In this document: in pieces, positions 35,299 to 64,000 of the stretch
Numbering within the stretch: position 1 is the stretch's first letter
How the letters are laid out: every line of letters begins with the position of its first letter
Assembly: GCF_003055625.1 (NCBI RefSeq)
Contig: NZ_CP028811.1
Coordinates: 1,550,001-1,614,000 of the forward strand
Length of the DNA stretch: 64,000 nucleotides
Direction: 5' to 3'
From: Flavobacterium magnum
Lineage (GTDB): Bacteria; Bacteroidota; Bacteroidia; Flavobacteriales; Flavobacteriaceae
Position numbers and translations under genes: made by a program
Notes under the pieces: model-generated
What the model was told of the DNA's origin: nothing
Seen by the model: the letters and a program-made list of their open reading frames with translations, nothing else
Database searches by the model: none

Positions 35299-37077
35299 TT
35301 ATTGCTTCACCAGCTTAACCGTTTTTACGTTGTCACCGGCGTTAATCTGCATCAGGTAACCGCCTGCCGGCAGTCCGGACAGATTGATTTGTGCGTGAGG
35401 TGTCCCCGGAGCGGCATGCAAGACCCGCTGTCCGATTAAGTTGTAAACTTCAAGGGAATTTATGTTTTGGCTGAAATTGACGCGTAAAATGTCTTTAACG
35501 GGGTTTGGTGCTACGGTGAATGTGCTGTTGTCAAATTCCGCCGTACCCAGTGCCACCTGTGTTACAGTTACAGCAAGTCGTTGTGCGGCCATCCTGTTTT
35601 CCGTATTCGGGCAGCCATTTACGTTTTCTGACTGCGCGTAGTAGGTGAGTCCATTAACAAGCGGGGTAGTATCAGGCAATTCATTTCCTTCAGTTGGCGC
35701 ATCCCACCAGCTAATGTTTTCTCCTTCGACTTCAAGCTCTGCCAGTGTATCTCCTGGTTCGAAATCCTGTGCTGTGTCGCCTTGAGGCGTTACGGTAAAT
35801 GGTTCGATTTCCAATGTAAAAGATTCAATCCCCGGACAGTCATTGCCGGATGCCAGATCCGTGACACGCATGAAGATCACTTCGTGGTCGAACCCCATGT
35901 AAGCGCTCAGCATGGCCTCGGGAATAAAGCCTCCGGTATAGTTCATCGCATCGGAATAAGAATGATAGAAAAGCACTTCGTAATTCAAAGGATCCATCCC
36001 ATTGAGCACCTGTGCTGTGTTTGACGTCAGGTTAAACAAGGCAAAACCATTGTCTGAACAAGCAAACAAGTCGGACGGAACGCCTACCGGCATCATGCCA
36101 CTGGCAATGGTCGCAGTCGCGGAGATGGTCGCAGGCAGGCTTCCGCATGCACTGATCACCGTTGAGACCTCATAAATCCCGGGACTGTCTTCACAGACGG
36201 TGAGTGTGTTCTGGTTTGCATCGGCAATGAGCACACCATTCTTTTTCCACTCATAAACCGGTGTGTCGACCTCAATTCCGTTGGGGCTGAAACGCCACGC
36301 CTCATTTGCTGTCTCCCATGGCCCGGTATTCCTGTTCGGAGGGAAAGCCGCGAGCGTGCCGTCCATATTCTGTAACCCGATCAGGCCGCGGCCGCCGTTC
36401 CATGAGTCGCAGGCAGTTCTTTTCTTGACGTATACGTCGATGATGTTTGATGATTCATACAGTATTACCTGGCTTGTCTGCAAGTCCGCCGCACCACATT
36501 GGAATTGTGGCAACTCATTAAAGTTGACTACGAGGTACCGGTTCGGGGCTTCACCGCCGGTATAATAATTGACATTCTGGACGTCAGGATCGACTACCGT
36601 ACCGGCATCATTTCCTGTTGTACGTATGTCAGTATCCTGATACACACCGTAAATCGCGTTTTTTATTGGGAAAGAGGTGCTGGGAATCGGGCTGTTGAAA
36701 TTCCATTCACAAAAATTCCCCTGAACTGGAGGGTTAAAGCTAATAACGCCATTTGTACCGACATAAACGGTACTGTAACTGTCGTTGTAAAAGCAAAAGT
36801 TGAATCCCAAAGGGAAAGCGGGACTGTAGACGTCATCGTTCAATGCGTCAATTACCGTGCCGCCGGTAAATGGGTATGGGCTCTGCGCAGCAATCTGCGC
36901 CACATCATAACCAGTCGTTTGTTTCAGATTCAGCAGCGACGCAGAAAGCGTGACGCAGGTTTCCGGAGTGCATACGCTGGCAGGCGCATCGAGGTTTAAA
37001 TGGACCTGGGGGGCGTTTTGCGCAAACGCCATGCTGCCTGCAAACAGCGCAATGCCGCGTAAGTATTTTTTTGCCAT
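35299..37077 (-). CDS. Secreted nidogen-like/Ig-like protein with T9SS sorting domain
   Basis: A 592-residue exported protein. After the signal peptide (MAKKYLRGIALFAGSMAFAQ), an Ig-like strand at residues 35-47 (VCTPETCVTLSAS) is followed by a nidogen-like module (about 50-268; YVGTNGVISFNPPVQGNF and YLVVNFNELPQFQC). The Ig-like domain then resumes with PVYEWKKNGVLIADANQNTLTV at about 270. A further Ig-like unit (YYAQSENVNGCPNTE) precedes a type A T9SS domain (FTVAPNPVKDILRVNFSQNINSLEVYN to GGYLMQINAGDNVKTVKLVKQ). It is likely a surface adhesin. A -7 box (37101-37094) lies just upstream. Confidence 0.82.
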   Translation of the reverse strand: MAKKYLRGIALFAGSMAFAQNAPQVHLNLDAPASVCTPETCVTLSASLLNLKQTTGYDVAQIAAQSPYPFTGGTVIDALNDDVYSPAFPLGFNFCFYNDSYSTVYVGTNGVISFNPPVQGNFCEWNFNSPIPSTSFPIKNAIYGVYQDTDIRTTGNDAGTVVDPDVQNVNYYTGGEAPNRYLVVNFNELPQFQCGAADLQTSQVILYESSNIIDVYVKKRTACDSWNGGRGLIGLQNMDGTLAAFPPNRNTGPWETANEAWRFSPNGIEVDTPVYEWKKNGVLIADANQNTLTVCEDSPGIYEVSTVISACGSLPATISATATIASGMMPVGVPSDLFACSDNGFALFNLTSNTAQVLNGMDPLNYEVLFYHSYSDAMNYTGGFIPEAMLSAYMGFDHEVIFMRVTDLASGNDCPGIESFTLEIEPFTVTPQGDTAQDFEPGDTLAELEVEGENISWWDAPTEGNELPDTTPLVNGLTYYAQSENVNGCPNTENRMAAQRLAVTVTQVALGTAEFDNSTFTVAPNPVKDILRVNFSQNINSLEVYNLIGQRVLHAAPGTPHAQINLSGLPAGGYLMQINAGDNVKTVKLVKQ

Positions 37078-37093
37078 GTCTTATTTTTTTTGG

Positions 37094-37101
37094 CAAATAT
37101 A
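37094..37101 (-). promoter_or_regulatory. -7 box of the 592-residue protein gene
   Basis: TATATTTG on the minus strand matches TAnnTTTG, 16 nt before the ATG. No TTG is found at the -33 distance, so confidence is moderate. Confidence 0.5.
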
Positions 37102-37135
37102 TGGATATGGTGTTGACAGGAAGAATTTTCGCATC

Positions 37136-43100: not shown

Positions 43101-43573
43101 AAAACCGTTTTGTCTGCAATTGATTTTTCAAAAGCCTGTTTGATTTCCCTTGTGAAATCTGCAGTGCTCCAGGTCAGGAAATCCGGTTCCCCGCTGACAG
43201 CGTCGCGCCCGTAAATCCTGTAGTTGTTTCTCCTCAGGTACTTGTCGAGGCATTTTGCGTACACCATCTGGAGCAGCGCTTTTGAGGGAGGGGAGAGCCG
43301 GGCGATGTGCGTGTGGAGTGAAGTGATGATTTTTGATTGCGCGTTTTCGTCCAGCCTGAGCATGTATTTTGACTGGTAAAAGAAGCATTTGATGATTTGA
43401 GCCTCATTTTTCTGAGAAGTCGCTTTGACGGAAATTCGGTCGACCGCCTCTGAAGCCGACCTGATCCTGTCCTGTTCCTCGAGCCTGACGATCTTTTCCC
43501 AAGCCCTGTCGAAATGCTGCGGAAAAACCGCCGACGGACATATGAAAAGCAGTACGAAAAGTAGTTTTTTCAT
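37136..43573 (-). CDS. Alpha-2-macroglobulin-like protein with embedded carboxypeptidase-regulatory and TonB plug domains
   Basis: A 2145-residue exported protein, start ATG 43573 ([19 protein letters not shown]). MG-type beta domains run to about residue 1160 ([21 protein letters not shown] marks MG2). A carboxypeptidase-regulatory domain follows (about 1170-1228; [19 protein letters not shown]), then a SusC-type TonB plug (about 1250-1365; [20 protein letters not shown], then [21 protein letters not shown]). The A2M domain resumes at [24 protein letters not shown], with a thioester-like CAEQ (Cys1607, Gln1610) in [13 protein letters not shown] and alpha-helical toroid motifs. Bacterial A2M proteins trap foreign proteases. 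The plug without a barrel suggests docking to TonB or to another outer-membrane channel. The family call is firm; the fused role is inferred. Confidence 0.85.
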   Translation of the reverse strand: [2145 protein letters not shown]

Positions 43574-43727
43574 GTTTTTGGGTTTTGAAAAGTAAAGCAT
43601 CTGGGGTCCGGAAGCAGGGATTTCCAACCCTATTAAATTTTCATGAAGATAATGAATTTGTGTTATATAACGCCTGCAGCCATATCGAAGCCCGGCTATT
43701 TTAAGTTTTTTTTCTCTTTAAAAATAC

Positions 43728-43735
43728 TACCTTTG
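43728..43735 (+). promoter_or_regulatory. -7 box of the putative porin gene
   Basis: TACCTTTG matches TAnnTTTG, 20 nt before the ATG at 43756. A T-rich run precedes it in place of a -33 TTG. Confidence 0.5.
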
Positions 43736-43755
43736 CGCCATATCCGGCAACTGCA

Positions 43756-49100: not shown

Positions 49101-52100
49101 ATTACAAAAAGTCAGCCGATGCGAATGACCTTACAGGGTGGAAATTTGTGGAAGCCAATGGGACGACCTCTCCATTTGATTTTACAATCGATTATTCATT
49201 ACTGAATGCAGGTTCGGTTTCCGTCAATGATGTAATTCAGTATTTCGTGGTGGCCCAGGACACGGCGGGACCGAATGTCGGTATCAACTCAGGCACATTC
49301 AATACCCCGGCCACGAGTGTTGCGCTTGCTTCGGGACAGTTCCCGATTACCGGTACAATCAATTCTTATAGCGTATTGACTGCGCTCAGTGGGATAAAGA
49401 CGGTTTGTCCTTCCGGGTGTGATTATCCAACGCTGACTGTAGCAGGCGGTGCCTTTTCGGCTGTCAATAGCAGTATCGTTACCGGAAATGTCACGTTACA
49501 GATTGCAGGTGACCTTACTGCGGAAACGGGCGCGGTTACCTTAAATGAATTTGCTGCCCCTTATAGCGTCACAATCAAACCCGTCGGAAGCGCCCGTGCT
49601 ATTTCCGGAACCTCTTCGACGACATTGATTATGTTATTTGGCGCCGACAATGTGATCATTGACGGCTCGCTTGGAAGCACAGCCAACACCATATGCCCTG
49701 CAAGTTCGGCTACGAGAGATCTTACCATTACGAATACGAACTCAAGCACTACATCAGGGGTTATCGGAATAACAAACAACGGAACCAATGGCGCCTCAAA
49801 TAACACGATTAAGAACTGTAATATTGTTGGGAATTCCAACACGACTACCCGTACCGGTATCGGATCGGTTAATACTGGGGCTACCGGAGGGAATAATAAC
49901 AACTCCTTTATCAATAATAATCTATCCAAATCACTATTTGGTATTTCTGTACAGGGTTTGAGTGCTGTAGCCAAAAATTCAGGGACTACAATAAACCAGA
50001 ATGTTATTGCGACTGCATCACCAAACAATGTTCAGATTGGCGGTATCTTTGTAGGATTTGAAACCGGTGACACGATTTCAGGCAATACGGTTTCAGGAAT
50101 TAATTCCGCTACAGACGCGTTTGGAATTTCCCTCGGGTTGAATTCGTGGCTTGCTACTACCACTACGGGAAGCGAAGTGGTAAACACGACTATCAGTAAT
50201 AATATTATCGGGACCGTTCAAAATACGGGAACCAATAGTTCTGCCGGTATTCTTGTAGGCCCTGCGGCATCGGGAACAAACCGGATTATAAATAATGAGG
50301 TCTACGGCGTTATCGGAAATGCCACTGTTGGCGACATCACTACGGGTATTTTTGTGATCCCGGCCACTGGTTCTTCCCTTCAGGTATATCACAATACCGT
50401 TTCCATGACGGGAGACAGAGGTACCGGAACTACCGGTTCAAGTCTGGCCTTAGCCGTTGGAGGTGCAGATACGGCGATTGATATCAGAAACAATATTTTT
50501 GTGAATAAGCAGACAACTGTAGCCGCTGGAAAATCCTATGCTATCGGTTTTGGATATTCGACGTTTGCTAATCTTACCTCGAACAATAACAATTTCTTTA
50601 CATCGGGAGCAAATGCTAATTTCGCTGTAACTTCTGCATTAAACACAGGTACGGACCGGACAAGTTTGGCCAATTTGCAGGCAGCCACCGGAAAAGACGC
50701 GGCGTCATTAAATATTAATGCGGTGTTTACTTCCTCGAATGATCTGAGGCCTGCTGCAAATCTGACCAATGTACCGCTAACCAATGCCGGTGCGGATCTA
50801 AGTGCGGTTGTGCCCTCAGATATCGATTGCGCTGCCAGGAGTACCACCCCAAGCTTAGGATTTAAGGAATTTTCTGTAGATGTCTGCTCCGGTGCCAATG
50901 CAGGTACCGCGTCCGCAGCCCTGTCCATTATTTGTGGTTCCGGTTCAACGACCATTTCATCAGCCGGATATTCAACAGGATTGAATACAACATACTTGTG
51001 GCAATCATCCGTAGATGCTGCATTTACGACTCCTGTCGATATAGGAGTTGCCTCTGCCAATTACAGCAGTTTGAATACGGGTACCATCACTTCAACGACA
51101 TATTATCGTTTGGTTGTTGAATGTACAGCAGTGCCTGTAACCAACATTTCAAATGTTGTTACGGTAACGGTCAACACGGTGCCTGTGGTGAACGTAACCC
51201 CGCCATCAGCAACAATTTGTTCAGGCGGAACGGTAAACCTTGTGGCCAACGGAGCAACAACATACAGCTGGTCTCCGGGTACAGGACTTGATGCCACAAC
51301 AGGGGCGTCAGTCAATGCAAATCCAACAGTTACTACCACCTATACGGTTATTGGTACGACCAATGGATGCGCTTCTGCACCTGTAAATGTAACTGTCACG
51401 GTAAATCCTGTTCCTCTAACCCCTGTTGCAGGGTCAAACACCCCGGTTTGTGAAGGAGGTACTTTAAATTTAACCTCTTCGATAGTAACGTTGCCGGGTT
51501 ATACAATGAACGGAAATAGTGGCGTAAGTTTCATAGATATCAGTGGTACAGGAACTTCAGCAGGAACTATTGCAGATGATTCTGAGCATAATCTCACCAT
51601 CCCGTCATTTACTTTCAATGGTGTGGCTTATACGACAGCCAGGGTAGGTAATAACGGAGTTTTGGTATTCGGTACAACAACGGGAGATATTATCTTTAAT
51701 AATTCTGCGTTGCCCCAGGGTATTGCTGCCAGTACAACTGCTACAAGCGGACTTATTACCGGTACAGGTAATTCACTGGCTGCAATTGTAGCAAACTGGG
51801 ACGATATGCAGCCATTGGATGCAAGCAGTACGATCAAAACGCAGACTGTTGGAAATTTGTATATTATTCAATGGTCTAATGAAGATAATTTTAACGCTGC
51901 GGGTTCCGGAACGATTACTTTCCAGATACAATTGGATACTACCACAGGACAGATACATCTTGTTTATCCGGATCTTACTTATGGCGTGCCTGCGTTTGAT
52001 GCTGCGGCCAGTGCTACTATCGGATTAAATTACAGTGCTTCATCAGCATTACAGTATTCGTTTAATACAGCCAGTATTGTAGACGGACAGAGTGTAACTT

Positions 52101-54610
52101 TTACACCGAATACTGTGAATTATTCATGGACAGGTCCAAATTCATTCTCTTCGTCATTGCAGAATCCGTCTATATCAAATGTGACTACTGCTGCGTCAGG
52201 TACTTATGTCGTAACGGCAACCAACCCTAATACAGGTTGTTTCTCAACAGCTAGCACGGTTGTGGCAGTTACGCCTGCTGCCGTGGGAGGAAGTGTTACT
52301 GGAGGAACTACAATCTGTTCAGGTTCTACAAGTGGGATTTTGACGTTAAGTGGTGATACCGGTACTATAGTAAGATGGGAAAGTTCAGTTAGCCCATTTA
52401 TAACATGGTCACCAATAGCCAATACTACACATACTTATACTTCAGGAGCGCTCACGCAAACAATGAGATTCAGGGCCGTTTTACAAAATGGTGCCTGTAC
52501 TCCGGTTAATTCAAACTATACCACAGTAACTGTTGATGCGCCTTCAGTAGGAGGCAGTGTTACAGGAGGAACATCAGTATGTTCCGGTGCTACAAGTGGA
52601 CTTTTAACTTTGGCAGGAGAAACAGGTGCGGTAGTTAGATGGGAAAGTTCAGTTAGTCCTTTCACAACCTGGTCTCCAATAGTTAATACTGCAAATACAT
52701 ATACCTCAGGAGTTCTTACGCAGGATACTGCGTTTAGGGCAATGGTTCAAAATGGTGTTTGTGGAGAAGCAAATTCTTCTGCTACTACAGTTACTGTCAG
52801 TCCGATATCAGTTGGAGGCGCTGTAAATGGTGGTTCATCTGTATGTTCAGGGTCGAACAGCGGCATACTTACATTATCGGGTCATACGGGATCTGTGGTA
52901 AGATGGGAAAGTTCAGTTAGTCCTTTTACAACATGGACTCCTATAGCCAACACCAACACTACTTATGTTTCCGGTGCAATTACTGTAGAAACGCATTTCC
53001 GTGCCGTTGTCCAGAGTGGTTCATGTTCAGAGGCTACTTCGTCTGAGACAATCGTTACGGTTGGCGGAAGTAGTACGACCTGGTCATCCGGATCATGGAG
53101 TAATGGAGTGCCTAATTCAACCAGTGCGGCTGTCATTAATGGTAATTTTACTGCTGCTGCAGACCTTTATGCCTGTACCTTGACAATCCAAAGTGGAACG
53201 GTTTCGTTTGCCGGAGGATTCGATGCTTACGTAAACGGTAAGGTTACTGTAACCAGCGGAACATTAACTTTTGAGGATGGTTCTGACCTTGTGCAGACGA
53301 ATGAGATAGCCAACACAGGTAATATTAAGTACAAGCGTACTGCCAACCTGATCCGTCAGGATTATGTTTACTGGTCATCACCGGTATCAGGACAGTTGCT
53401 TCAGGCATTTTCTCCGAACACGTTGAATACACGTTTCTATAACCTCAACGAGCCTTCAAACAGCTTCGCGCAGATCGCGTCGCCGTCTACAACGGCATTT
53501 GAGGCTGCCCGAGGTTATATGATCCGTGCTGCGAACAACCATCCGGCGGTACTTACGCCGTGGACGGGAACATTCACAGGTGTGCCCAACAATGGTCTGC
53601 AGACCATCCCTGTGACTGTTACCGGGCAGGGATACAACATGATCGGAAACCCTTATCCGTCTACGATAGATGCGGACCTGTACCTTGCCGAGCCAGGTAA
53701 CGCGGGCACACTGTACTTCTGGACGCACATCAGCCAGGCGGCCGCCTCAGGAGCGAACTATGCAAGCTATAATCTTTCCGGAGGAACAGCTGCACAGGCA
53801 GGGGGCGATGTCCCTACGGGCGTTATACGTGGAGGCCAGGGGTTTGTGCAGTTGAAAACTTCGGCAGGTAACGCTACTTTCACCAACGCGATGAGGACTG
53901 CTGACGGCGGATCATTTTATAGGAGCAGTAATACCGTTGAAAAGCACCGTATGTGGTTCAACCTGAGTACACCGTCACATGCAATGAACCAAATCCTTAT
54001 AGGTTATATCGACGGCGCTACTATGGGAGTGGATAGCCAGTACGATGGTAAGCTTATTGAGGGAGGCGCATCAATCTCGAGCATCATTGGCGATACGAAC
54101 TATCTGATTCAGGGACGGTCACTTCCATTTGTTGATACCGACGTCGTGCCGCTTAACTTCAATGCCGATACGGCTGGTGTTTACACTATATCACTTGATC
54201 ACGTTGACGGCCTGTTTGAAGGCAATCAGAACATTTACCTGAAGGACAACTTTACCGCTACAGTGCACGATATCAAGCAGGGCGGTTACACTTTCACTTC
54301 AGCCCCAGGCGCATTTGCCGACAGGTTTGAAGTGGTTTACCAAGCTTCGCCGCTTGCAGTAGAAGACCCTGTTTTTGATTCAAAAAGCATTGTAGTTTAC
54401 AAAGACCAGGGCATAATCCACATCAATTCAGGCCAAGTTGAGATGTCAGGAGTGAAGGTCTTCGACATCCGGGGCAGGCTGATCTACAGGAAGGATGGTA
54501 TAAATGCCAATGATACGTTGTTGGAAAACCTTCGTGCTGAAGAACAAGTGTTGCTCGTTCGGATCACTTCTACCGACAACGTGACGGTAACCAGGAAAGT
54601 GGCTAACTAA
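46109..54610 (+). CDS. Giant T9SS-exported beta-helix/Ig-like adhesin
   Basis: A 2833-residue surface protein. The N-terminal signal is extended (MQRILLLFENGSTYPKRIK, then LLLAVLLLCVANFVTAQ). Two right-handed beta-helix regions (about 258-830 and 1111-1484) share the strand motif NxxIxNCNI. Ig-like units follow, one split by a nidogen-like module (about 1792-2002, VGNNGVLVFGTTTGDII). Three tandem repeats of 83-88 residues (about 2059-2318) each contain VRWESSVSPF. A conserved C-terminal block (about 2410-2700; GNPYPSTIDADLYL, WFNLSTPSHAMNQILIGYIDGAT) leads to a type A T9SS domain (VKVFDIRGRLIYR to VTVTRKVAN). It probably functions in attachment or gliding. Terminator downstream. Confidence 0.85.
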   Translation: MQRILLLFENGSTYPKRIKLLLAVLLLCVANFVTAQSNGIYESYAILSINGGANAYYDMNAATANPDFQGANLGTFTLGTNSLVVKGGQNKTFKCSGGDITNGHLRWRVWLTSAGASGTFNTENYGFVSNDGGGCGGNQTWEGTGGTTNIIAGRVPGNYTLEVYSDADGVPGTVFSSNGGNNYKATFTVQADPALPVLVSSTTGLTTLTGYATLKAAFDAVNAGTHTGVISIYIGGNTTEAAIASLNASGSGSASYTSMSIVPVGGGARTITGSMATELILFNGADNVTVDGLNTGGNSLTISNTSIAATSGTSTLKFIGGATSNTITNCNVLGSATMSVVTNGGTIFFSTDGITANGNDNNTISNCNIGPAGGNLPSKAIYGNGSTTTTAIGNSGIVITNNNIFDFFAPAVTSAGINVSGGCNTWSITNNRFYQTGTRTWTAGAQHSPIWISATTATSGAQTFTITGNIIGYASNTQTGTYTLTGAGSSARFWGIHFNGISTGAATTISNNTVAAVSMTGVTSSGSGTSSPFMGIFFQEGNGLTNGNTIGSQSATGSLVFSTTTTGATDAYGIFNFTSNTWTSSNNNIGGISVTNLGASGTFIVYGIRAFTGTTVLWTAAGNNIGGTVANSIQLNATGASSQVVGMFTSNAPSLLTGNTIRNLTSNIGTGTGTAASVIGILTTASSASGTLSQNSIFNLTNTNASAASTVTGIQYGGTTTGIIERNLIYGLTAATNAATAEINGIRVGSGTSVYKNNMIAIGDGIANAIQVNGINEPAGTDSFFNNSVYIGGAPTAGTANSFAFNSSVTTNTRSFRDNIFVNNRSNNGATGKNYIVRVGGTAANPAGLTINNNIYNATGTGAVFGLFNALDVISLPAWRTAVGQDADSFDTDPKFVAPANAIPNLHINPAVASAAEANGFLIASVTDDFDGQTRSGLTPTDIGADAGNFTGLDLAAPVISYTTLSNDVVNTTRAFTNVTITDVTGVNVTPGTKPRLYYKKSADANDLTGWKFVEANGTTSPFDFTIDYSLLNAGSVSVNDVIQYFVVAQDTAGPNVGINSGTFNTPATSVALASGQFPITGTINSYSVLTALSGIKTVCPSGCDYPTLTVAGGAFSAVNSSIVTGNVTLQIAGDLTAETGAVTLNEFAAPYSVTIKPVGSARAISGTSSTTLIMLFGADNVIIDGSLGSTANTICPASSATRDLTITNTNSSTTSGVIGITNNGTNGASNNTIKNCNIVGNSNTTTRTGIGSVNTGATGGNNNNSFINNNLSKSLFGISVQGLSAVAKNSGTTINQNVIATASPNNVQIGGIFVGFETGDTISGNTVSGINSATDAFGISLGLNSWLATTTTGSEVVNTTISNNIIGTVQNTGTNSSAGILVGPAASGTNRIINNEVYGVIGNATVGDITTGIFVIPATGSSLQVYHNTVSMTGDRGTGTTGSSLALAVGGADTAIDIRNNIFVNKQTTVAAGKSYAIGFGYSTFANLTSNNNNFFTSGANANFAVTSALNTGTDRTSLANLQAATGKDAASLNINAVFTSSNDLRPAANLTNVPLTNAGADLSAVVPSDIDCAARSTTPSLGFKEFSVDVCSGANAGTASAALSIICGSGSTTISSAGYSTGLNTTYLWQSSVDAAFTTPVDIGVASANYSSLNTGTITSTTYYRLVVECTAVPVTNISNVVTVTVNTVPVVNVTPPSATICSGGTVNLVANGATTYSWSPGTGLDATTGASVNANPTVTTTYTVIGTTNGCASAPVNVTVTVNPVPLTPVAGSNTPVCEGGTLNLTSSIVTLPGYTMNGNSGVSFIDISGTGTSAGTIADDSEHNLTIPSFTFNGVAYTTARVGNNGVLVFGTTTGDIIFNNSALPQGIAASTTATSGLITGTGNSLAAIVANWDDMQPLDASSTIKTQTVGNLYIIQWSNEDNFNAAGSGTITFQIQLDTTTGQIHLVYPDLTYGVPAFDAAASATIGLNYSASSALQYSFNTASIVDGQSVTFTPNTVNYSWTGPNSFSSSLQNPSISNVTTAASGTYVVTATNPNTGCFSTASTVVAVTPAAVGGSVTGGTTICSGSTSGILTLSGDTGTIVRWESSVSPFITWSPIANTTHTYTSGALTQTMRFRAVLQNGACTPVNSNYTTVTVDAPSVGGSVTGGTSVCSGATSGLLTLAGETGAVVRWESSVSPFTTWSPIVNTANTYTSGVLTQDTAFRAMVQNGVCGEANSSATTVTVSPISVGGAVNGGSSVCSGSNSGILTLSGHTGSVVRWESSVSPFTTWTPIANTNTTYVSGAITVETHFRAVVQSGSCSEATSSETIVTVGGSSTTWSSGSWSNGVPNSTSAAVINGNFTAAADLYACTLTIQSGTVSFAGGFDAYVNGKVTVTSGTLTFEDGSDLVQTNEIANTGNIKYKRTANLIRQDYVYWSSPVSGQLLQAFSPNTLNTRFYNLNEPSNSFAQIASPSTTAFEAARGYMIRAANNHPAVLTPWTGTFTGVPNNGLQTIPVTVTGQGYNMIGNPYPSTIDADLYLAEPGNAGTLYFWTHISQAAASGANYASYNLSGGTAAQAGGDVPTGVIRGGQGFVQLKTSAGNATFTNAMRTADGGSFYRSSNTVEKHRMWFNLSTPSHAMNQILIGYIDGATMGVDSQYDGKLIEGGASISSIIGDTNYLIQGRSLPFVDTDVVPLNFNADTAGVYTISLDHVDGLFEGNQNIYLKDNFTATVHDIKQGGYTFTSAPGAFADRFEVVYQASPLAVEDPVFDSKSIVVYKDQGIIHINSGQVEMSGVKVFDIRGRLIYRKDGINANDTLLENLRAEEQVLLVRITSTDNVTVTRKVAN
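51443..52140 (+). other. Nidogen-like module nested in an Ig-like domain (within the giant adhesin)
   Basis: The Ig-like strand PVCEGGTLNLTSS (about 51443) is followed by a nidogen-like stretch with VGNNGVLVFGT, IVANWDDMQPLD and YIIQWSNEDNF. The Ig-like domain resumes with NYSWTGPNSFSSSLQNPSIS (about 52118). The normal B-to-C strand connection is therefore interrupted by about 210 residues. Confidence 0.6.
52283..53059 (+). repeat. Three tandem repeats of 264, 264 and 249 nt in the giant adhesin gene
   Basis: Repeats start at 52283, 52547 and 52811, each with VGGSV/AV and NGG or TGG, then ICSG/VCSG, SGILTL or SGLLTL, VRWESSVSPF and FRAVVQ-type segments. The core VRWESSVSPF is identical in all three and its coding bases are also nearly identical. 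The recent duplication and in-frame period suggest length variation of a surface stalk. Confidence 0.9.
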
Positions 54611-54635
54611 GTCTTGTTTGAACATATTATAAGAG

Positions 54636-54663
54636 CCTCCCGGTTATCCGGGAGGTTTTTTTT
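54636..54663 (+). terminator. Terminator of the first giant adhesin gene
   Basis: CCTCCCGG (54636-54643) pairs perfectly with CCGGGAGG (54648-54655) around TTAT, followed by eight T. It lies 25 nt after the stop. Confidence 0.9.
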
Positions 54664-55229
54664 GCGGAAGCGGTGCGGTAACCTTAACTGATGCAATCTT
54701 ATTGAAATAGAATCGATACGCATCTCTATTGTACACGTTAATTACACTGTGAAAGTTGACGCACCATTAGGATTGTTTATCCTATAAATATGTCTAAGGT
54801 TAAATTTACTTGCCGTGTTGAAAAGAGTTCTGATTATCGGGCCCATGACGATGCGCTCTGCAATTGGTTCAAACCCTTGATTTTCAATTGTTGTATGTCG
54901 CTGTTGGCCCAAGTTTGTATTTGGATATATATTAAGGTATAAAATTTTAAACTTTCAGCTGCCTTCTGGTCAAGTTAAAGCATCGCAACAGTCAAAATGT
55001 ATCGCCTTTCCCGCTCGCAGTTTTTACGAAATACGTTGCCGAAAATACGTTATGGTTATTAAAAAATTGTAATTTATTTATAACCTTATAAAGTAAAAAC
55101 ACAGGCAATTGGTCGGTTAAAACAGGCTTTTTAACTGTTTTTTTTATATTTAGAATCAATTTATGGTAATTATTATGATATAGTTAACTTTATTTTATAA
55201 CTTTAGACGTTATTAATTAATTATAAACT
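54664..55229. other. Intergenic region upstream of the second giant adhesin
   Basis: No gene can be supported in these 566 nt. The sequence becomes increasingly AT-rich toward 55229. The only signals are two TAACTTTA boxes (55185-55192 and 55198-55205). Confidence 0.6.
55185..55205 (+). promoter_or_regulatory. Candidate promoter of the second giant adhesin gene
   Basis: TAACTTTA occurs at 55185 and 55198, each one mismatch from TAnnTTTG, 25-38 nt before the ATG at 55230. No clear -33 TTG lies at the right distance. Confidence 0.35.
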
Positions 55230-58200
55230 ATGTATAAAAATTACGATTCTTTGAGATCTGGTAGGGATACCTGGCTCAAAAATGACGTTGGCGACCCGCT
55301 CGGTTCGCCGCCCACGACGTCAAAAAGGTTGGTATTTCGTTTTTTGATGACTGCATTTTTCATGCTGTCCTTCCTGTTTTTAGGAGGATCAGCTGTGCAG
55401 GCTCAGACAACGGTTATTAGTCCTTCAGGAAGTGGAAGCTTCGAGGGTGCGAATTTTGCTGCGGATGGATGGACAACTGTCCAGTTGGCAACTCCGGGAG
55501 GAAATAACCTTGCTCTCGGTAATGCGGCGACAATCGGCTTCACGCCAACTCACGGAACCAAGGGTGTTTTTGTAACCAACAATGGAACTTCAAGGGGGTA
55601 CGCGCATGCGTCTTCATGGGCTTGGATTTACAAGGACGTTACGCTCGCTGCCGGTGAGACAATACCGACATTTACGATGGATATGTTTGGGAACCCCGGA
55701 GATACTGGTTTTGACGGTATCGTGGTTGGTATTTCCGATCAGACCTTTACGGCCTCAAACACAGTTGGGGCTACTGGTAGCATGTCGGGAACCGCTATAC
55801 CGGGTATGACAATCGCCACAGTAGCAACATCGAACACTTTTATAGAAGACGGTAACTATGCCGTGGCAACCACTCGTACTTTCACTTTAAGCGGTGTTGC
55901 TATGGGCAACTCATTGTCCTCATCAACAAAAAGGATCTGGATCGGTTGGAGATGTGACGGATCTGTCGGTAACCTGACTACGCCTATGTCTTTTGACAGG
56001 GTGAATTTCGTTACGGCAGCTCCTGCAAACTTTACTGCGGTACAAAGCGGACTTTTTTCTTCTCCTGCAACATGGGGCGGAACAGTACCTGCTCCAGGTA
56101 ACAGTATAACGATTCCTGCGGGGGCAACCATTACTGTTGACCAAGCTTTAAACTATAGTGACCTTACCATAAATGGTACTTTACAATGGGGAAGTTCGAG
56201 TAACTCGGTTACTATAGGAGGAAACGTTCTTATCAATTCCGGAGGTAAGTTGCTGGCTTATACGGCTGCGACAACGCCTGTCGGTATTACGATGACTATT
56301 GGGGGGAATTACACCAATAATGGTTATGCCAATCACGCGGTGGGAACCGGGACCCTGGCTACGCTTACGTTCAACGGCAGCGGTTCAACGCTTGGAGGGA
56401 CCGGTACTTTTGCGGGGGACGGGACACGCGGTATCATCCGTCAGCTGTTCTTCCAGAACAATGGATCGAATACGATTAATACTACGCAAAACCTTACCGT
56501 TTATAATTTAGGTCATACAGGTACAAGTAGCCTGAACACCAATGGTAAACTTGCGGTCGACAATACTGCTCAGTACTATGGGCAGGCTGCTAATATTCAG
56601 GTCGCTAACGTTGCTGTAACCAATATGGGTTCAGGTTATACGTCAGCTCCGATACCGTCGTGTTCAGGTGCAGCTCTGTGGACAGCCGCTGCTACATTGT
56701 CGGTTGGTAACGTTAGGGTTACTACTACCGATATCTATGTAGTCAGTGTTGCGGGTACTTCAGGAACATCTGCTCCTGTACATACTTCAGGGGCTGCGGC
56801 CGCTACTGGCGGTACTGCTGAATTCCTTTGGGTAGGTCCGGCGGGAACAATCGGAACGCCTTACACTCCTGCAGCTTTGGTTGTAGGTACACAATATTTT
56901 TACGGAGGGAACCTGTATACTGCCGTTGCGACTACCGCGATGGGAGTTGCCGGAGCCCCTGTTCATACCACTGGAACTGTAGGCAGCCTTCGTTATGTAG
57001 GTACGCCTGCAATGGTTTCCGCAAACTGGGATGCAACTACTTCTACGCTTAGGAGTTTGAATCTTGTAAATGCGGGTAGTGGATATTCTTCTTCTACAGG
57101 ACCTGCGATTTCTATTGTTGCAAATGCTGCAGGAACCGGTGCAGCCGCTACTGCGGTTGTATTGTATACGCAAAACGGACCGACTGCCAGTTCATTTCAA
57201 AAGAGTGGTGGCGGAGCTACTGTCTCTGGTGGTTTGACTATCAACAGTGATGCCGGTGCAGGTTTGCTTACTTCAGATGTTCAGGCCTCTTCAGGGGTAG
57301 CAACGTTGTCTACTACAAATGGTGGAAACAATTATACTGTTGCTCCGGTTGTAGGTTTTGCAGGACCAACCCAGGTTAACCTTGTAACCAACGCGGGTAC
57401 AGGATACACCGCCGCACCAACAATTACGGTTACAGGTGGGAATTTGGTAACAGGTACTGCGTTGACAAGTGCAAACTTTACAATTACTGTGAATAACGGT
57501 AACGTGGCCTCTGTATACCTTAATACAGGTACTACCGCTACCTATTCAACCCCGCCGACACTTTCCTTTACAGGTGGCGGAGGTTCAGGTGCTACGTTAG
57601 CATTTCCTTCAGGCTCATGGCCTGCTGCGACGGCTAATATAGGAGCCAACGGACAGTTGACCAGTTTTACAGTGACCAATTCAGGGTACGGTTATGCTGC
57701 GGCTCCTACCGTAGGTGTGGGTACTGCGTCTGGTACAGCCAACGGTGGTACTTTCACTACAGTTGCTACAGCGCCGGTTGCAAGAGTTGCTTTGTATAAC
57801 CTGACACTTAACTTTTTCGCTCCGGCGACATCTGCCGTTGTTAACGGTGACGATGCTGCAATACCGACAAACCGTAAAATTAATACCTTGTCTTTAAATG
57901 GTAATGGTAACGGTTTGAATATCACGAGCAATCTGGTTTTGTATGGTACGACACCTTTAGCGCTTGTGGCTAGTGGAAATACTCCTGGTAACATCCTTAA
58001 TATGGGTGGCAATACAGTGACTTGTACGACCAACGGTTTTGCCGGTCTTTCAGGCACTGTAGGTGCTACAAACTCGTTCGTGAAGAACGGTTCTTTTGTA
58101 CTTACCGGTCGTGGTGGTGCAAGTGTATTTAACTTTCCGTTCGGAGGAACTGTTACGTGGTCTGCCGGCAGCGGTACGCTTGCAACAGGATCCAATGTAT

Positions 58201-61200
58201 TGACCGCAAAAGTATCTGATACGGCTGCTCCGACGAACGCCGTTACAGGCGGCACAGGACTTGCAATGGGTACACGTGCATACAGGGTTCAGACAGCAAC
58301 TACGTTAGGGGCTGCGGCTACTACAGGTACAAACCCAACGATTTTGGTCAGCTTTAATGGAACCGATGCACTGACAACGACTCAGGATCAGACTTTCCTT
58401 GCTGATGCGACTTCATTGAATGGTCCATGGACTATCAGAAGTACAGCTTTTGGAGCTTCAGGCGCGTTGCCGACTGCAAGCACCAAGACGACGGCTACTT
58501 CAGCGCCGGGTCCGATCGTACATACTGGTGATAACTATTATGCCTGGGCGACACCGGCAGCAACGATCACAGATTTTTCTCCTTTGACCGTTTGTGCCAG
58601 TTCGGGAACATTTACCATTACAGGAACTAACTTTACAGGTGTAACTGCAGTTTCTATCGGCGGCACTCCTGTTTCGTCATTTACAATCGTGAATGCTACC
58701 ACAATTACCGGTACTGCAGGGACCGGTACAACCGGTGTTGCATCCGTAACTAAAAACGGTGCCACGATTTCCGGAGTACAAACGGTTACAGTTACCGGTT
58801 CTCCGACCGCTCCTGGCGTGTCTCCGACTTCAGCCAGTATTATCACCGGAGGTGCTGTTTCATTTACAGCTACCGGAACTGGAGGTACTATGAAGTGGTA
58901 CGATGCGGCTACCGGAGGTACATTGCTGTTTACAGGTGATACCTATAACACAAATATCTGTACAACCAGAACATTATATGTTGCTGAAGACAATGGTTCC
59001 TGTGAAGGAGCCAGAGCGTCAGTAACTGTAACTGTTCAGCCTATCGTAGTGAGCGCTACAACTTCCACTTTCTGCGGAACGGGCGCCACGACTACATTGA
59101 GCGTCACTCCGACAGATCCTTCAATAACCTACACCTGGACTGCACTGACGACTTCCGCGTCACTAAGCGCAACTACAGGAAACAGTGTTGATGCTACAGT
59201 TTCAGAAACTTCGGAATTTAAAGTTACAGCTACAACTACATTAGGTGGCTGTAGTGTTGATGCATTCTATTCCGTAGGAGTATATCCTTTGCCTACTGCT
59301 ACAGTAACTACTTCAGCAACGGGCGTTTGTCCTGGAACAAGTGCTACCATCAATTCAGGATTGAGCGCCGGTAACTTTACCGCCGCATGTATCACTCCTG
59401 CTCCAAAAACTGCCCCCGGAACTGTTAATTACCTTGCTAATAACGGCGTTTTAACAACTGCACTTACTTCAGGTACAGCCGATGACGGTGGATGGGGTAA
59501 CATTCCTTTAGGATTCTCATTTAACTTCTTTGGAACAAATTACACGAATGTAAACGTAGGTACTAATGCGGTACTTCAATTTGGAACTTACAATGCTACG
59601 GCACTTGGCGATTTTACAATCGGTGCCTTACCTAATACTGTAGATCCTCTTGGAGCAATATTTGCAGGGTCAAATGACTTACGTGTAGATCAGACAGGCG
59701 GAGCCGGTCCAGCTACCTATGTACGCTATTGGACAGAGGGGTATGCCCCAAACAGAAGGTTCGTTATTGAATACAATGTTTTTCAATGGACTTCCGGGTT
59801 AACATCAACCAATAGGCACAATGTTCAGGTAATTGTTTATGAAACGTTGGGTACGGTTGACATCATCGCAAAAGAGGTTCTGTCGACCAACAGCAAATCA
59901 ATTGGTGTTAACAGTCCTACCGGTACGATCGGTGCGGCTGCACCAAATTGTACAACCAACGCCGTAAATTTCTGGTCTGGTACGACTGCTACAATTAGTG
60001 CAGCTTCACCACAGGCATGGAGATTTTCGCCACCATCAAACTATACTACAACATGGTTTGCCAATGGCGTTCAATTTGTAACTGGTACAAACCTTTTCAG
60101 CCAGGTTGTGTCACCTTCAGTGACCACTACTTATTCTATTACTTATACGAACCAGACTACATTATGTACTAATTCTCCAGGTTCTGCACAGGTAGTAATG
60201 TCAGTACTGGGTAATACGCCACCGACAGGTGTCAATACATTGTCAAGTTCGCCGACAGTTTGTGCTGGATTTACAGCGACGTTAAGTACAGATTATGCTG
60301 GTTCTACAGCGGGTCTTACCTATCAATGGCAATCTTCACCTGCTGGCGCGGGTACCTGGACAGATGTTCCTGGTGCTGTAGCTGATACCATGATTTCCAG
60401 CCCAATCAATGCGCCAACTGATTTCAGGCTTGGCATCTCATCTTGTGGCGGAACAGTAGGGTATACCAATCCGGTTACGGTTAATCTAACGAACAGTATT
60501 TCTTCAACAAGCGGCGCTACACGCTGCGGTGTGGGCACCGTAAGCCTTACTGCTTCAGGTACGCCGGGAGCCAGTATCAATTGGTATGCTGCTTCATCTG
60601 GTGGAACACCTTTATTTACAGGCTCTCCGTATACACCGTCACTATCAAGCACAGTTACTTATTACGTAGCTGCTGAAACTCCAGGCTGTACAAGCCCTAG
60701 GGTTGCTGTATCAGCTGTTGTTAACCCGGCGCCTGCTTTGACTTTGAGCAGTTCATCTGCTGATCTTTGCGTAGGCCAGACAAGCAGCACTGTTACAATC
60801 ACTTCTAATGTAGCCGATTATAATAGCTACGTATGGAATCCTTCTACAGGAGTTTCCGGCAGTGAAATAACAGGATGGACATTCAGTCCTTCTGTTACAA
60901 CTGTATATACGCTTACGGCTACTGAACCAGGAGGTTGTACTAACCAAGCCACTTTTACGGCTAACGTTGATGCGCTTCCTGTTGATGCTACAGCGGATTT
61001 GACTACAGTTTGTGCTGGATTTCCTGTTGCATTGTCCGCCTCTACAATTGTCCTTTCATCTGGCCCGGCTGTACTGCCGACCGGATATTGTTCTCCTGAC
61101 AGCAGCGGTGGTGGCGGTTCGAACCCGATCACTTCTGTGGTATTCAATACTTTATCAAATACTGGTATTGTGCAAACAACACCGTTTTTCGACACTTATC

Positions 61201-64000
61201 CTGCTACAGGAACTACGACAACCACAGTAACTGCGGGTCAAACGTACAACCTTACAGTAAGTGCTGCTACCAGTATTTTATCTGTATGGATTGACTGGAA
61301 CAGGAACGGCGATTTGGAGGATTCTGAATGGCAACAAGTCTGGACGAGTGCTTCTTCAGGTACTTTGCCTATTTTAGTTCCTTCCAATGCAGTTGGTGGT
61401 TACACGAAAATGAGGCTTCGTAGCCGTGGATCAGGTAATCCGAATGGCGCTTCAGACGATTGTAGTGCCTTCTTTAGCGGTACATCACAAGACTACACCA
61501 TTAATGTGATCGGAGCGGTTGAAAAAACAGGCCTGGATTATAGCTGGTCACCTGGTGGTGCTACAACTCAGAATATTATCGTTAATCCAACTTCGACTAC
61601 TACATATACTGTAACAGCAACTAACCCACTTACGGGCTGTTCTAACACTGACAGTATATTAATCAATGTTAATCCTATCCCGATTGCTCCTACAGGCGTA
61701 GATTCTTCACAGTGTGGAAATCAAGTGCCAACAGCTTCGGTATCGGATAACAATGCGTTCACCACACCAACATTCAAATGGTATGCTGATAACGTAACGA
61801 CTACAGCTTTGCAAAGCAGTACTTCTACAACTTACACCACCGCAATCAATGCTACAACAACATTCTATGTATCTGTAGTAAATCCAGGCACTGGTTGTGA
61901 AAGTAGCAGGACTCCTGTAACCATTACCGTAAGCAATGCTGACGCTATTATGGCGTCACCTTCTTCTTCGACTGTATGTCCGGGGGGCAGTGTTTCTGTG
62001 AATGTAACCAGTACGAATTCTAACTATACTTATACGTGGACGGCTTTGCCTTCAACAGGTAGTGGTATTACAGGTTCGCTTTCGGGTGCAAGCAACAGTA
62101 TAACTCCTACTTTATCTGGTACATATACTTATACTGTAAATGCAGTTGACGGACCATGTTCTACATTTACCACGTTTACCATCACCGCAACAGCAAACCC
62201 TGTACTCACAGCAGGCGCTGTACCTGCTGCGGTATGTAACAATGGTATCAGTACACTGACTGCTGCTCACCCTAGCCGTATTACGTTCTCTACTTCAACG
62301 GGTGCTGCTTTAGATCCTATGGTAGGTGCGACAGATGTTTTGACTACTGATAACGATGATACTCCAACAGCTGCTCCGGCCGCAATTGGATTTACATTTA
62401 ACTTCAACGGTGTTGACTACAGTGATTACTCCGTTTCTCCGGATGGATGGATCTTGTTGGGCGCTGGTTCAGCTGTTGATGAGTTTTCAAACTCTGCTAC
62501 AAGCACGGCAAATATTCCGAAACTTTATCCATACTGGGATGATATGGCAACAGGTACTGACGGTAACGTCAAAACCCTAGTAACCGGTTCGGCACCAAAC
62601 AGGATTTTCATCGTGGAGTGGAATACGACCGTACCACGTAGCCTAGGGGGCGCTGCTAATGCAAAGTTCCAGGCTTGGTTGTATGAAACCAGCAACAAAA
62701 TTGAATATCGTTATGGAACAATGTCTACCACTACAGGTTCTGCTACTGCAGGATATACTGTAAATGGTACAACTTTTAGTAACATTACTTTTACAAGTAA
62801 CACTGAAAGCAAGACTACGGCCAATAATAACAATACAGGTGTCCCTGCAAGCGGAAGAATGTATACTTATCTTCAGGAGGCTTCTACAGTTACGTGGTCT
62901 CCATCGACAGACCTGTATACTGATGCAGGAGCGACAATTCCTTACGCCGGTCAGAATTTGGCAGTAGTTTATTCTAAGCCTGCTGTAACGACAACTTACA
63001 CGGCAACTGCAACAGGACCTGCGCCTGCGAACTGTACGACAACTCAGAATGTTACGGTTACCAATAACTCTATCAATATTGCAGCCATCACTGGTGGTGC
63101 TAATGATTATTGTATCGGTTCTCCAGCGCTTGACTTTGATACTGCGACTCCGGGTGTTACATGGACTTCGTCCAACCCTGCAGTAGCAACTGTTGATGCT
63201 AGTGGAGTTGTAACTGCTTTAACTGCAGGTACTACTATCATTGGCGCTACAATCACCAACGCAGGATGTACAACTGTAGCCCCGAACCCTCAGACTGTTG
63301 TAATCAATGATCAGGTACAAATTGTATCTTTCACTGCTTCTCAGACTGTTGTTACGTTAGGAAACACTTCGTTTAACGTGAATGCTACCGGTACTGGATT
63401 GACTTATCAGTGGCAAGTTAATGAGGCTCCAGGCTTCACAGGTTTTGTGAATGTTGTCGATGACGCTATTTACAGCGGCGCTCAAACAGCTACACTTAAC
63501 CTTACGGCCGTTCCGGCTTCATTTAATGGTAATTTATACCATGTGGTTGTTTCAGGTCTCGGAGTTTGTGCTCCTAAGACTTCTAACCCGGACTCTCCGT
63601 TAACAGTGGGTGATACGGGTATTACTACACATCCAACCGATGTGACAATTTGTGAGACTACCACGGTAGCTTCATTCTCGGTTGTTGCTTCAGGTGATGA
63701 TTCAGGTGGTTACCAATGGCAAGAGCAGGTAGGTGGTACAGGGCCATGGACGAATATTACTAATGGTGGTATTTACTCAGGGGCTACTACGCCTACGCTA
63801 TCGCTTTCCGGTTTGACAGTGGCTCAAAGTACTAACAAGTACAGGGCTGTTGTTACAGGAGCGGTTACTTCTGCCAATTCTAATCCCGCAACGCTTACGA
63901 TCAACCAATCGATTACTGTACAAACTAATCCTTCGAATGCAAACGTTTGTTTCACAGGAGGTTCTGCAAGTTTCAGTTCTACGGCGACAGGTTTGATATC
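55230..64000 (+). CDS. Giant multidomain Ig-like/IPT/GEVED surface protein (partial, runs off right edge)
   Basis: An open frame of at least 2923 residues with no stop before 64000; the C-terminus, presumably a T9SS domain, is outside. It starts MYKNYDSLRSGRDTWLKNDVG, with a 35-residue polar extension before the hydrophobic signal (FLMTAFFMLSFLFLGGSAVQAQ). A jelly-roll domain follows (about 65-260). Residues about 460-840 contain five VTNxGxGY repeats and two phage-tail-like motifs. An IPT/TIG domain (TDFSPLTVCASSGTFTITG) lies near 1110. A chain of Ig-like units follows, three of them interrupted by inserted modules: two nidogen-like (about 1380-1600 and 2345-2550) and one GEVED (about 1940-2100; WIDWNRNGDLEDSEW). 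It is probably a surface adhesin or gliding-associated protein. Confidence 0.85.
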   Translation, partial: MYKNYDSLRSGRDTWLKNDVGDPLGSPPTTSKRLVFRFLMTAFFMLSFLFLGGSAVQAQTTVISPSGSGSFEGANFAADGWTTVQLATPGGNNLALGNAATIGFTPTHGTKGVFVTNNGTSRGYAHASSWAWIYKDVTLAAGETIPTFTMDMFGNPGDTGFDGIVVGISDQTFTASNTVGATGSMSGTAIPGMTIATVATSNTFIEDGNYAVATTRTFTLSGVAMGNSLSSSTKRIWIGWRCDGSVGNLTTPMSFDRVNFVTAAPANFTAVQSGLFSSPATWGGTVPAPGNSITIPAGATITVDQALNYSDLTINGTLQWGSSSNSVTIGGNVLINSGGKLLAYTAATTPVGITMTIGGNYTNNGYANHAVGTGTLATLTFNGSGSTLGGTGTFAGDGTRGIIRQLFFQNNGSNTINTTQNLTVYNLGHTGTSSLNTNGKLAVDNTAQYYGQAANIQVANVAVTNMGSGYTSAPIPSCSGAALWTAAATLSVGNVRVTTTDIYVVSVAGTSGTSAPVHTSGAAAATGGTAEFLWVGPAGTIGTPYTPAALVVGTQYFYGGNLYTAVATTAMGVAGAPVHTTGTVGSLRYVGTPAMVSANWDATTSTLRSLNLVNAGSGYSSSTGPAISIVANAAGTGAAATAVVLYTQNGPTASSFQKSGGGATVSGGLTINSDAGAGLLTSDVQASSGVATLSTTNGGNNYTVAPVVGFAGPTQVNLVTNAGTGYTAAPTITVTGGNLVTGTALTSANFTITVNNGNVASVYLNTGTTATYSTPPTLSFTGGGGSGATLAFPSGSWPAATANIGANGQLTSFTVTNSGYGYAAAPTVGVGTASGTANGGTFTTVATAPVARVALYNLTLNFFAPATSAVVNGDDAAIPTNRKINTLSLNGNGNGLNITSNLVLYGTTPLALVASGNTPGNILNMGGNTVTCTTNGFAGLSGTVGATNSFVKNGSFVLTGRGGASVFNFPFGGTVTWSAGSGTLATGSNVLTAKVSDTAAPTNAVTGGTGLAMGTRAYRVQTATTLGAAATTGTNPTILVSFNGTDALTTTQDQTFLADATSLNGPWTIRSTAFGASGALPTASTKTTATSAPGPIVHTGDNYYAWATPAATITDFSPLTVCASSGTFTITGTNFTGVTAVSIGGTPVSSFTIVNATTITGTAGTGTTGVASVTKNGATISGVQTVTVTGSPTAPGVSPTSASIITGGAVSFTATGTGGTMKWYDAATGGTLLFTGDTYNTNICTTRTLYVAEDNGSCEGARASVTVTVQPIVVSATTSTFCGTGATTTLSVTPTDPSITYTWTALTTSASLSATTGNSVDATVSETSEFKVTATTTLGGCSVDAFYSVGVYPLPTATVTTSATGVCPGTSATINSGLSAGNFTAACITPAPKTAPGTVNYLANNGVLTTALTSGTADDGGWGNIPLGFSFNFFGTNYTNVNVGTNAVLQFGTYNATALGDFTIGALPNTVDPLGAIFAGSNDLRVDQTGGAGPATYVRYWTEGYAPNRRFVIEYNVFQWTSGLTSTNRHNVQVIVYETLGTVDIIAKEVLSTNSKSIGVNSPTGTIGAAAPNCTTNAVNFWSGTTATISAASPQAWRFSPPSNYTTTWFANGVQFVTGTNLFSQVVSPSVTTTYSITYTNQTTLCTNSPGSAQVVMSVLGNTPPTGVNTLSSSPTVCAGFTATLSTDYAGSTAGLTYQWQSSPAGAGTWTDVPGAVADTMISSPINAPTDFRLGISSCGGTVGYTNPVTVNLTNSISSTSGATRCGVGTVSLTASGTPGASINWYAASSGGTPLFTGSPYTPSLSSTVTYYVAAETPGCTSPRVAVSAVVNPAPALTLSSSSADLCVGQTSSTVTITSNVADYNSYVWNPSTGVSGSEITGWTFSPSVTTVYTLTATEPGGCTNQATFTANVDALPVDATADLTTVCAGFPVALSASTIVLSSGPAVLPTGYCSPDSSGGGGSNPITSVVFNTLSNTGIVQTTPFFDTYPATGTTTTTVTAGQTYNLTVSAATSILSVWIDWNRNGDLEDSEWQQVWTSASSGTLPILVPSNAVGGYTKMRLRSRGSGNPNGASDDCSAFFSGTSQDYTINVIGAVEKTGLDYSWSPGGATTQNIIVNPTSTTTYTVTATNPLTGCSNTDSILINVNPIPIAPTGVDSSQCGNQVPTASVSDNNAFTTPTFKWYADNVTTTALQSSTSTTYTTAINATTTFYVSVVNPGTGCESSRTPVTITVSNADAIMASPSSSTVCPGGSVSVNVTSTNSNYTYTWTALPSTGSGITGSLSGASNSITPTLSGTYTYTVNAVDGPCSTFTTFTITATANPVLTAGAVPAAVCNNGISTLTAAHPSRITFSTSTGAALDPMVGATDVLTTDNDDTPTAAPAAIGFTFNFNGVDYSDYSVSPDGWILLGAGSAVDEFSNSATSTANIPKLYPYWDDMATGTDGNVKTLVTGSAPNRIFIVEWNTTVPRSLGGAANAKFQAWLYETSNKIEYRYGTMSTTTGSATAGYTVNGTTFSNITFTSNTESKTTANNNNTGVPASGRMYTYLQEASTVTWSPSTDLYTDAGATIPYAGQNLAVVYSKPAVTTTYTATATGPAPANCTTTQNVTVTNNSINIAAITGGANDYCIGSPALDFDTATPGVTWTSSNPAVATVDASGVVTALTAGTTIIGATITNAGCTTVAPNPQTVVINDQVQIVSFTASQTVVTLGNTSFNVNATGTGLTYQWQVNEAPGFTGFVNVVDDAIYSGAQTATLNLTAVPASFNGNLYHVVVSGLGVCAPKTSNPDSPLTVGDTGITTHPTDVTICETTTVASFSVVASGDDSGGYQWQEQVGGTGPWTNITNGGIYSGATTPTLSLSGLTVAQSTNKYRAVVTGAVTSANSNPATLTINQSITVQTNPSNANVCFTGGSASFSSTATGLI
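56605..57725 (+). repeat. Five VTNxGxGYxxAP-type repeats and two phage-tail-like motifs
   Basis: Units read VTNMGSGYTSAPIPS (56617), LVNAGSGYSSSTGPAI (57063), TTNGGNNYTVAPVVG (57312), VTNAGTGYTAAPTITV (57382) and VTNSGYGYAAAPTVGV (57673). Between the first two are IYVVSVAGTSGTSAPVHTSG and LYTAVATTAMGVAGAPVHTT, each followed by LWVGP or LRYVGTP. The pattern YxxxxAGTxGxSAPxHTSG with a following W/YVG is one I know from phage tail-fibre proteins. Confidence 0.65.

Follow-up and report, generated by a model that had tools for sequence, protein, structure and literature searches.

Split immunoglobulin-like domains as candidate side-mounted cargo ports in type IX-exported proteins of Flavobacterium magnum

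We analysed a 64,000-nucleotide stretch of the Flavobacterium magnum genome (hereafter the window; positions 1,550,001-1,614,000 of a 3.46-Mb single-contig genome, G000:C1:1550001-1614000), in which three open reading frames encode proteins whose immunoglobulin (Ig)-like domains are interrupted by long inserts. P0001 (35299..37077, minus strand) is a 592-residue protein with a single split Ig near its N-terminus and a type IX type A sorting domain (TIGR04183) at residues 522-592. The other two are giants encoded on the plus strand: giant one (P0002; 46079..54610) has 2843 residues, and giant two (P0003 within the window; 55230..63998) overruns the window edge into locus L002, its complete frame (P0005) reaching 3962 residues. 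Both giants end in a type IX type C sorting domain (NF033708), which in giant two lies at the far end of the full-length protein. Judged by these C-terminal sorting domains, all three are predicted type IX secretion substrates. Proteins of Flavobacterium pallidum are among the relatives of both giant two and P0001. The C-terminal tails of the adjacent giants are alike and appear paralogous (405 of 541 aligned residues identical, from window positions ~52979-54610 in giant one and the L002 end of giant two), but their N-terminal parts look different.

A sequence-only reading of the window had proposed five Ig-like domains cut between strands B and C by whole modules; all five exist at the places it gave, and a sixth was found beyond the window end, at residues 3104-3303 of giant two. 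In P0001, the N-half comprises strands A and B (residues 21-49, 36931..37017) and was located by the Ig profile and by modeled strands at residues 26-30 and 42-49. It is followed by a nidogen-like insert (residues 50-273, 36259..36930), delimited by the profile join and the model and matched by a profile of the other nidogen-like inserts, and by a C-half running from strand C onward with the invariant Trp277 (residues 274-326, 36100..36258), which is backed by conservation, profile, model and superposition. Giant one carries an N-half (residues 1776-1801, 51404..51481), a nidogen-like insert of the NID3 type (residues 1802-2012, 51482..52114) and a C-half (residues 2013-2069, 52115..52285); an uninterrupted Ig of the same protein (residues 1701-1779, 51179..51415), with a full Ig profile match (E = 2.7e-20), served as comparator. 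In giant two, the first split Ig (N-half 59283..59363, C-half 60042..60215) encloses a nidogen-like NID1 insert (residues 1379-1604, 59364..60041). The second (N-half 60966..61043, C-half 61533..61682) encloses a GEVED insert (residues 1939-2101, 61044..61532), and both its halves and its insert are also supported by a structure model. The third (N-half 62190..62267, C-half 62883..63077) encloses a nidogen-like NID2 insert (residues 2347-2551, 62268..62882) of the same type as the N-terminal domain of RemA. The halves in both giants were placed with the Ig profile, and their inserts by the profile join together with insert profiles or, for GEVED, a Pfam match.

The Ig profile, of 80 positions, was built from uninterrupted units of the window proteins and their relatives, and the split frames were scored with it; a Pfam scan finds Ig_7 (PF19081, the CHU_C-associated Ig) in four stretches of giant two. 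The expectation that the flanking halves would match a normal Ig once joined was borne out in all six cases, the joined score exceeding that of either half: 20.5 bits in P0001, 43.6 in giant one, and 31.2, 76.8 (the GEVED-bearing unit), 28.2 and 47.3 (the sixth case) in giant two, compared with 11.0, 29.2, 19.9, 61.1, 13.6 and 33.0 bits for the C-halves alone in the same order. Shuffled N-halves equalled the joined score in 0 of 1000 trials in each case, and random windows of the same three proteins, a control that kept the true N-halves present, did so in 24, 6, 15, 1, 13 and 7 per 1000. In each of the six cases the junction falls after profile position 25-27 and before 31-33, with cut points set by hand from motifs; the evidence for a single insertion site therefore rests instead on the comparison of profile cuts given below.

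In the AlphaFold2 model of P0001, two N-half strands precede the insert and one Ig sandwich closes over its 224 residues; ~78 residues, drawn from across 24..327, fit single Ig domains at 2.2-2.4 Å on superposition. The model thus describes an Ig that is discontinuous in sequence and predicted to be closed in structure over a folded insert. The GEVED-bearing split Ig of giant two likewise shows closed nesting, as read from its model by range arithmetic. In the third split Ig of giant two, the predicted local distance difference test (pLDDT) is about 67-82 in the N-half and about 76-89 in the C-half up to its last residues. Wherever a model could address the question, the halves did not appear as independent complete domains, and profile, predicted structure and conservation together support placement between strands B and C.

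Conservation was followed in 323 proteins, the matches listed from one search with P0001 (120 of 166) and from two more that started from split units of giant two (120 of 188; 88 of 88); since the set was drawn with P0001 and split units as queries, frequencies within it are biased. In an alignment of P0001 and its relatives (66 sequences), C36 and C41 ahead of the insert and W277 and C295 behind it are invariant. PF26689, a newer Pfam family, is precomputed for most P0001 relatives among the matches listed and could span either the insert or the split unit. Composites of N-half, insert and C-half were matched over >90% of their length by 84 other matches for the GEVED-bearing unit and 97 for the NID2 unit. 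A search for separate halves with the Ig profile gave 1754 pairs of an N-half and the next C-half in 241 proteins. In these, the gap was 0-19 residues in 1601 and 150-249 residues in 131, some of the latter being ordinary Igs with a missed half (e.g. P0005 1687-1865); the other 22 had other gaps. Shuffled versions of the 323 proteins yielded one N-half match and no C-half match. When the profile was recut at several positions and run on the 323 proteins, the ratio of gaps of 120-300 residues to short gaps was 0.111 at position 29 and 0.077 at position 22, as against 0.032, 0.019, 0.022, 0.025 and 0.025 at positions 36, 42, 48, 55 and 61; at position 67 matches were too few for a ratio. The excess of long gaps, as gauged by these profile matches, falls at the B-C junction.

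Clustering the 242 inserts found at cut position 29 by BLAST at E 1e-5 gave seven families that hold 228 of them and share no BLAST match with one another: nidogen-like NID2 (87), GEVED (52), laminin-G-like (50), an unnamed family (26), lamin-tail-like (5), MAM-like (4) and P-domain (4). Among the 14 inserts outside these families some look like ordinary Igs, and 6 of the 242 are false inserts that contain a full Ig match. In the printed examples the junction is identical for all seven families. By unrelated families we mean families lacking a BLAST link and differing in Pfam assignment where one is known; a remote common fold may still connect them. Names came from Pfam matches of one example each for GEVED, laminin-G (5.2e-19) and P-domain (3.4e-9), from precomputed Pfam lists and appearance for the lamin tail, and, for MAM-like, from one example that matched reelin below threshold; the Pfam description of one of the families places it in the concanavalin A-like lectin superfamily. 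The GEVED module named in the sequence-only reading has a direct match to PF20009 (E = 4.2e-17; 63.2 bits against a curated cut-off of 24.4). The nidogen-like label that this reading gave the four other window inserts stands by kinship and not by direct match: none of the five nidogen-like inserts (those four and the sixth case) matches a Pfam family at E <= 1 or reaches the cut-off of NIDO (PF06119). The name is used here because the NID2 profile also finds regions of P0315, a protein with a Pfam NIDO match (1.7e-14). The same profile finds the P0001 insert and NID1 and NID3 of giant two, and the NID3 units of giants one and two share 56% identity over the composite; on this profile kinship, the window's nidogen-like inserts evidently belong together.

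Both flanking halves were recognised in the 323 proteins for 91 of 136 GEVED, 49 of 61 laminin-G, 20 of 23 unnamed, 5 of 6 lamin-tail, 6 of 12 MAM-like and 4 of 4 P-domain matches. For the nidogen-like sets, whose counts overlap, the figures were 138 of 304 (NID2), 17 of 88 (NID1), 6 of 13 (NID3) and 26 of 126 (P0001 type). The remaining matches are a mix of missed halves and true non-port contexts; missed halves are clear by eye in three printed P0001-type examples, all of them P0001 relatives.

Cargo positions follow a preferred spacing. Counting all cargo-profile matches, with or without both halves recognised, neighbouring cargos are 220-285 residues apart in 150 of 296 pairs from 110 proteins (51 of 127 after clustering segments at 50% identity; 43 of 110 when the first pair of each protein is taken). 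Two intact Igs lie between ports in 153 of the 296 pairs and one in 42, mostly of the laminin-G lineage with 137-138 residues; the other 101 differ. By sequence comparison, the 220-285-residue spacing corresponds to a pair of intact Igs, each of its own conserved type, a and b: with matches above 60% identity left out, the best match in another protein was of the same type for 149 of 150 a segments and 148 of 150 b segments, although cutting the segments in fixed halves may slightly favour this outcome. In giant two, the two intact Igs between the GEVED and NID2 ports are type a (residues 2158-2237, 61701..61940; weak Ig profile match, E = 0.27, with model and type comparison) and type b (residues 2238-2324, 61941..62201; E = 1.7e-8, with model and type comparison). 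The step from GEVED to NID2 is 248 residues and fits the rule; those from NID1 to GEVED (338) and from NID2 to NID3 (552) are off it. We read the repeating unit as a putative three-Ig cassette of port, Ig a and Ig b with an exchangeable cargo port. P0285 carries eight cargos in the order NID2, GEVED, GEVED, P-domain, GEVED, NID2, lamin tail, P-domain, and its seven spacer segments are 228-242 residues long with a mean identity of 51% despite cargos of four families. Such alike spacers around different cargos make this protein the clearest sign of probable cargo exchange inside a duplicated frame.

A third giant of the same genome (L080/L081, G000:C1:292000-324999; open frame of 5128 residues) carries four cargos, all of the unnamed family, at intervals of 253, 252 and 266 residues, three with both halves recognised and one with the C-half only. 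The laminin-G giants P0140, P0145, P0207, P0156 and P0240 have a spacing of mostly exactly 137 residues, which leaves room for one small domain and not for two Igs.

We consider it likely that these split units are side-mounted cargo ports on a type IX-exported Ig fibre, with cargos of several families held in the B-C loop at a preferred spacing. The type IX system would export such proteins to the cell surface, the two giants forming fibres of tandem Ig-like domains. In those Igs that act as ports, the chain would build strands A and B, exit through the B-C loop, fold the cargo separately and re-enter to complete strands C to G. The Ig would thus close over its cargo, which would project to the side, its two termini together at the base, as the fibre axis runs on. 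One socket would take all seven cargo families, among which no kinship is detected, and in many proteins it would recur on every third Ig in the order port, type a, type b. The nesting, single site, variety of cargos and preferred spacing are supported by sequence and predicted structure; we infer ligand or surface binding by the cargos, the direction of projection, the role of the port as presenter, any benefit of the spacing and display for adhesion.

Several observations weigh against this account or narrow it. The NID2 insert of giant two is mostly modeled with pLDDT under 50, so that only its Ig frame is supported, the structure models otherwise being those of P0001 and the GEVED-bearing unit. 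The C-half cysteine is missing in 49 of 228 split Igs, compared with 43 of 2169 intact ones. Cargo domains also occur elsewhere: none of 38 GEVED matches in the 30 top-scoring order-level GEVED loci lay in a recognised port, and in L073-L089 both halves flanked 1 of 12 GEVED matches and 8 of 12 NID2 matches, neither half being found for 3 of those 12. Forty loci selected on the strength of their Ig_7 match held 132 intact units, and inspection by eye picked out 4 true splits, one nidogen-like case each in L061 and L066 and two MAM-like ones in L062; ports are therefore real but a minority of Igs. One might suppose that no Ig is split at all, the C-half and the last insert strands forming a complete Ig and the N-half being part of the insert. 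The natural residues preceding the C-half do align as an Ig start in giant one (38.3 bits vs 43.6 joined) and in the sixth case (42.9 vs 47.3), within ~5 bits of the joined score, and on these scores the two appear the weakest of the six against independent halves. In the other four cases, however, the natural upstream sequence scores about 10 to 20 bits below the joined halves, the P0001 model superposes on one Ig across both halves, and gaps of 20-119 residues between halves are rare (10 of 1754 pairs; 12 of 2438 for 21-119), leaving this arrangement highly improbable. The nesting could also be real with the cargos serving as spacers, stiffeners, protective caps or tolerated insertions rather than as ligand-binding heads, a view to which the failure of all but one of the six inserts in P0001 and the two giants to match a Pfam family and the term stalk domain used for GEVED in PMC10952558 both lend something. 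We nevertheless think it unlikely, since one site holds families without detectable kinship, one of them described in Pfam as belonging to the concanavalin A-like lectin superfamily, since NID2 is common to RemA, and since the domain projected by parallel RTX adhesins binds sugars according to PMC10865825 and PMC12077191.

The spacing is more evenly contested. The chances seem about equal that the every-third-Ig pattern has no function and simply records that a three-Ig cassette was duplicated and its cargos then replaced. In favour, the intervening Igs are conserved types, segments average 35-66% identity within proteins versus 35% between them, and the laminin-G lineage keeps its own shorter interval; against it, the spacing crosses cargo types (seen in 60 of 90 pairs of unlike type, and in 12 of 28 once clustered at 50% identity) and recurs in further loci. 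The rule is also far from universal, as 146 of the 296 pairs lie outside 220-285 residues. A bolder extension of the port model, that the B-C loop is a general-purpose socket in a repeating port-a-b cassette, with cargos swapping between unrelated folds and every third Ig placing them on one face of a twisted fibre, is held here only tentatively.

The sequence-only reading had suggested that such display was undescribed. Split Ig display is in fact published: RTX adhesins of Vibrio and Aeromonas have split Ig-like domains that project ligand-binding domains, as described in PMC10865825 and PMC12077191. By the same sources, FrhA (Vibrio cholerae), AhLap (Aeromonas hydrophila) and MpIBP (Marinomonas primoryensis) share the closure over a ligand-binding insert and the tandem-Ig fibre, and the C-terminal ligand-binding region of AhLap contains two split domains of Ig-like type; for one AhLap split domain the chain is described as exiting after the first strand, whereas in the P0001 model it exits after strand B. 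For type IX proteins we found no split Ig display in print among open-licence PubMed Central papers, nor a Bacteroidota form that combines one socket with seven cargo families and a three-Ig cassette; the claim of novelty thus holds only in part. RTX adhesins rely on type I secretion and RTX repeats, whereas P0001 and the giants are type IX proteins; Pfam scans of the three proteins gave no match to RTX families, and with their type IX sorting domains we rejected membership among RTX adhesins. The type IX proteins hold up to eight cargos along one protein and seven cargo families at one site, and their form differs from the RTX form in break site, range of inserts at one site and regular spacing.

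Among other adhesins, the Gram-positive pilus-tip proteins RrgA and GBS104 have a von Willebrand A head inserted in Ig-like/CnaB domains; this is a lone head at the tip of a sortase-anchored pilus, unlike the multi-cargo type IX proteins. The NID2 cargo type also occurs in RemA of Flavobacterium johnsoniae. It occupies residues 16-243 there (Protein Data Bank (PDB) 8gl6_D, E = 2.4e-23), too close to the N-terminus for a preceding Ig N-half. GhpA, the grappling hook protein of Aureispira (PDB 9flp, 9fls, 9flu, 9flv, 9flw, 9flx, 9fly and 9g8b), was the best solved-chain match to the A3 sequence profile (E = 6.9e-147) and the top Foldseek match for both models, the matched stretches being Ig arrays. 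GEVED (PF20009) is shared with CshA-type adhesins, where it lies in line downstream of NR2; in giant two it is nested in an Ig.

If the bolder socket reading is correct, a lineage could recombine surface-binding heads with the fibre left undisturbed. Under the port model, projection from the side would mean that a head need not sit at the tip. The junction, an Ig N-half ending in LxA(S), ~120-300 residues and then xYxW, would offer a route to unannotated candidate binding heads in giant hypothetical proteins, including families without a Pfam entry.

Between P0001 and giant one, the window also encodes P0004 (37136-43627, minus strand), a bacterial alpha-2-macroglobulin of 2163 residues with MG2, A2M and bMG10 domains. 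Directly ahead of its A2M domain sit a carboxypeptidase-regulatory domain (residues 1189-1255) and a TonB receptor plug domain (residues 1283-1376), and the protein looks like a macroglobulin fused to receptor-type N-terminal parts.
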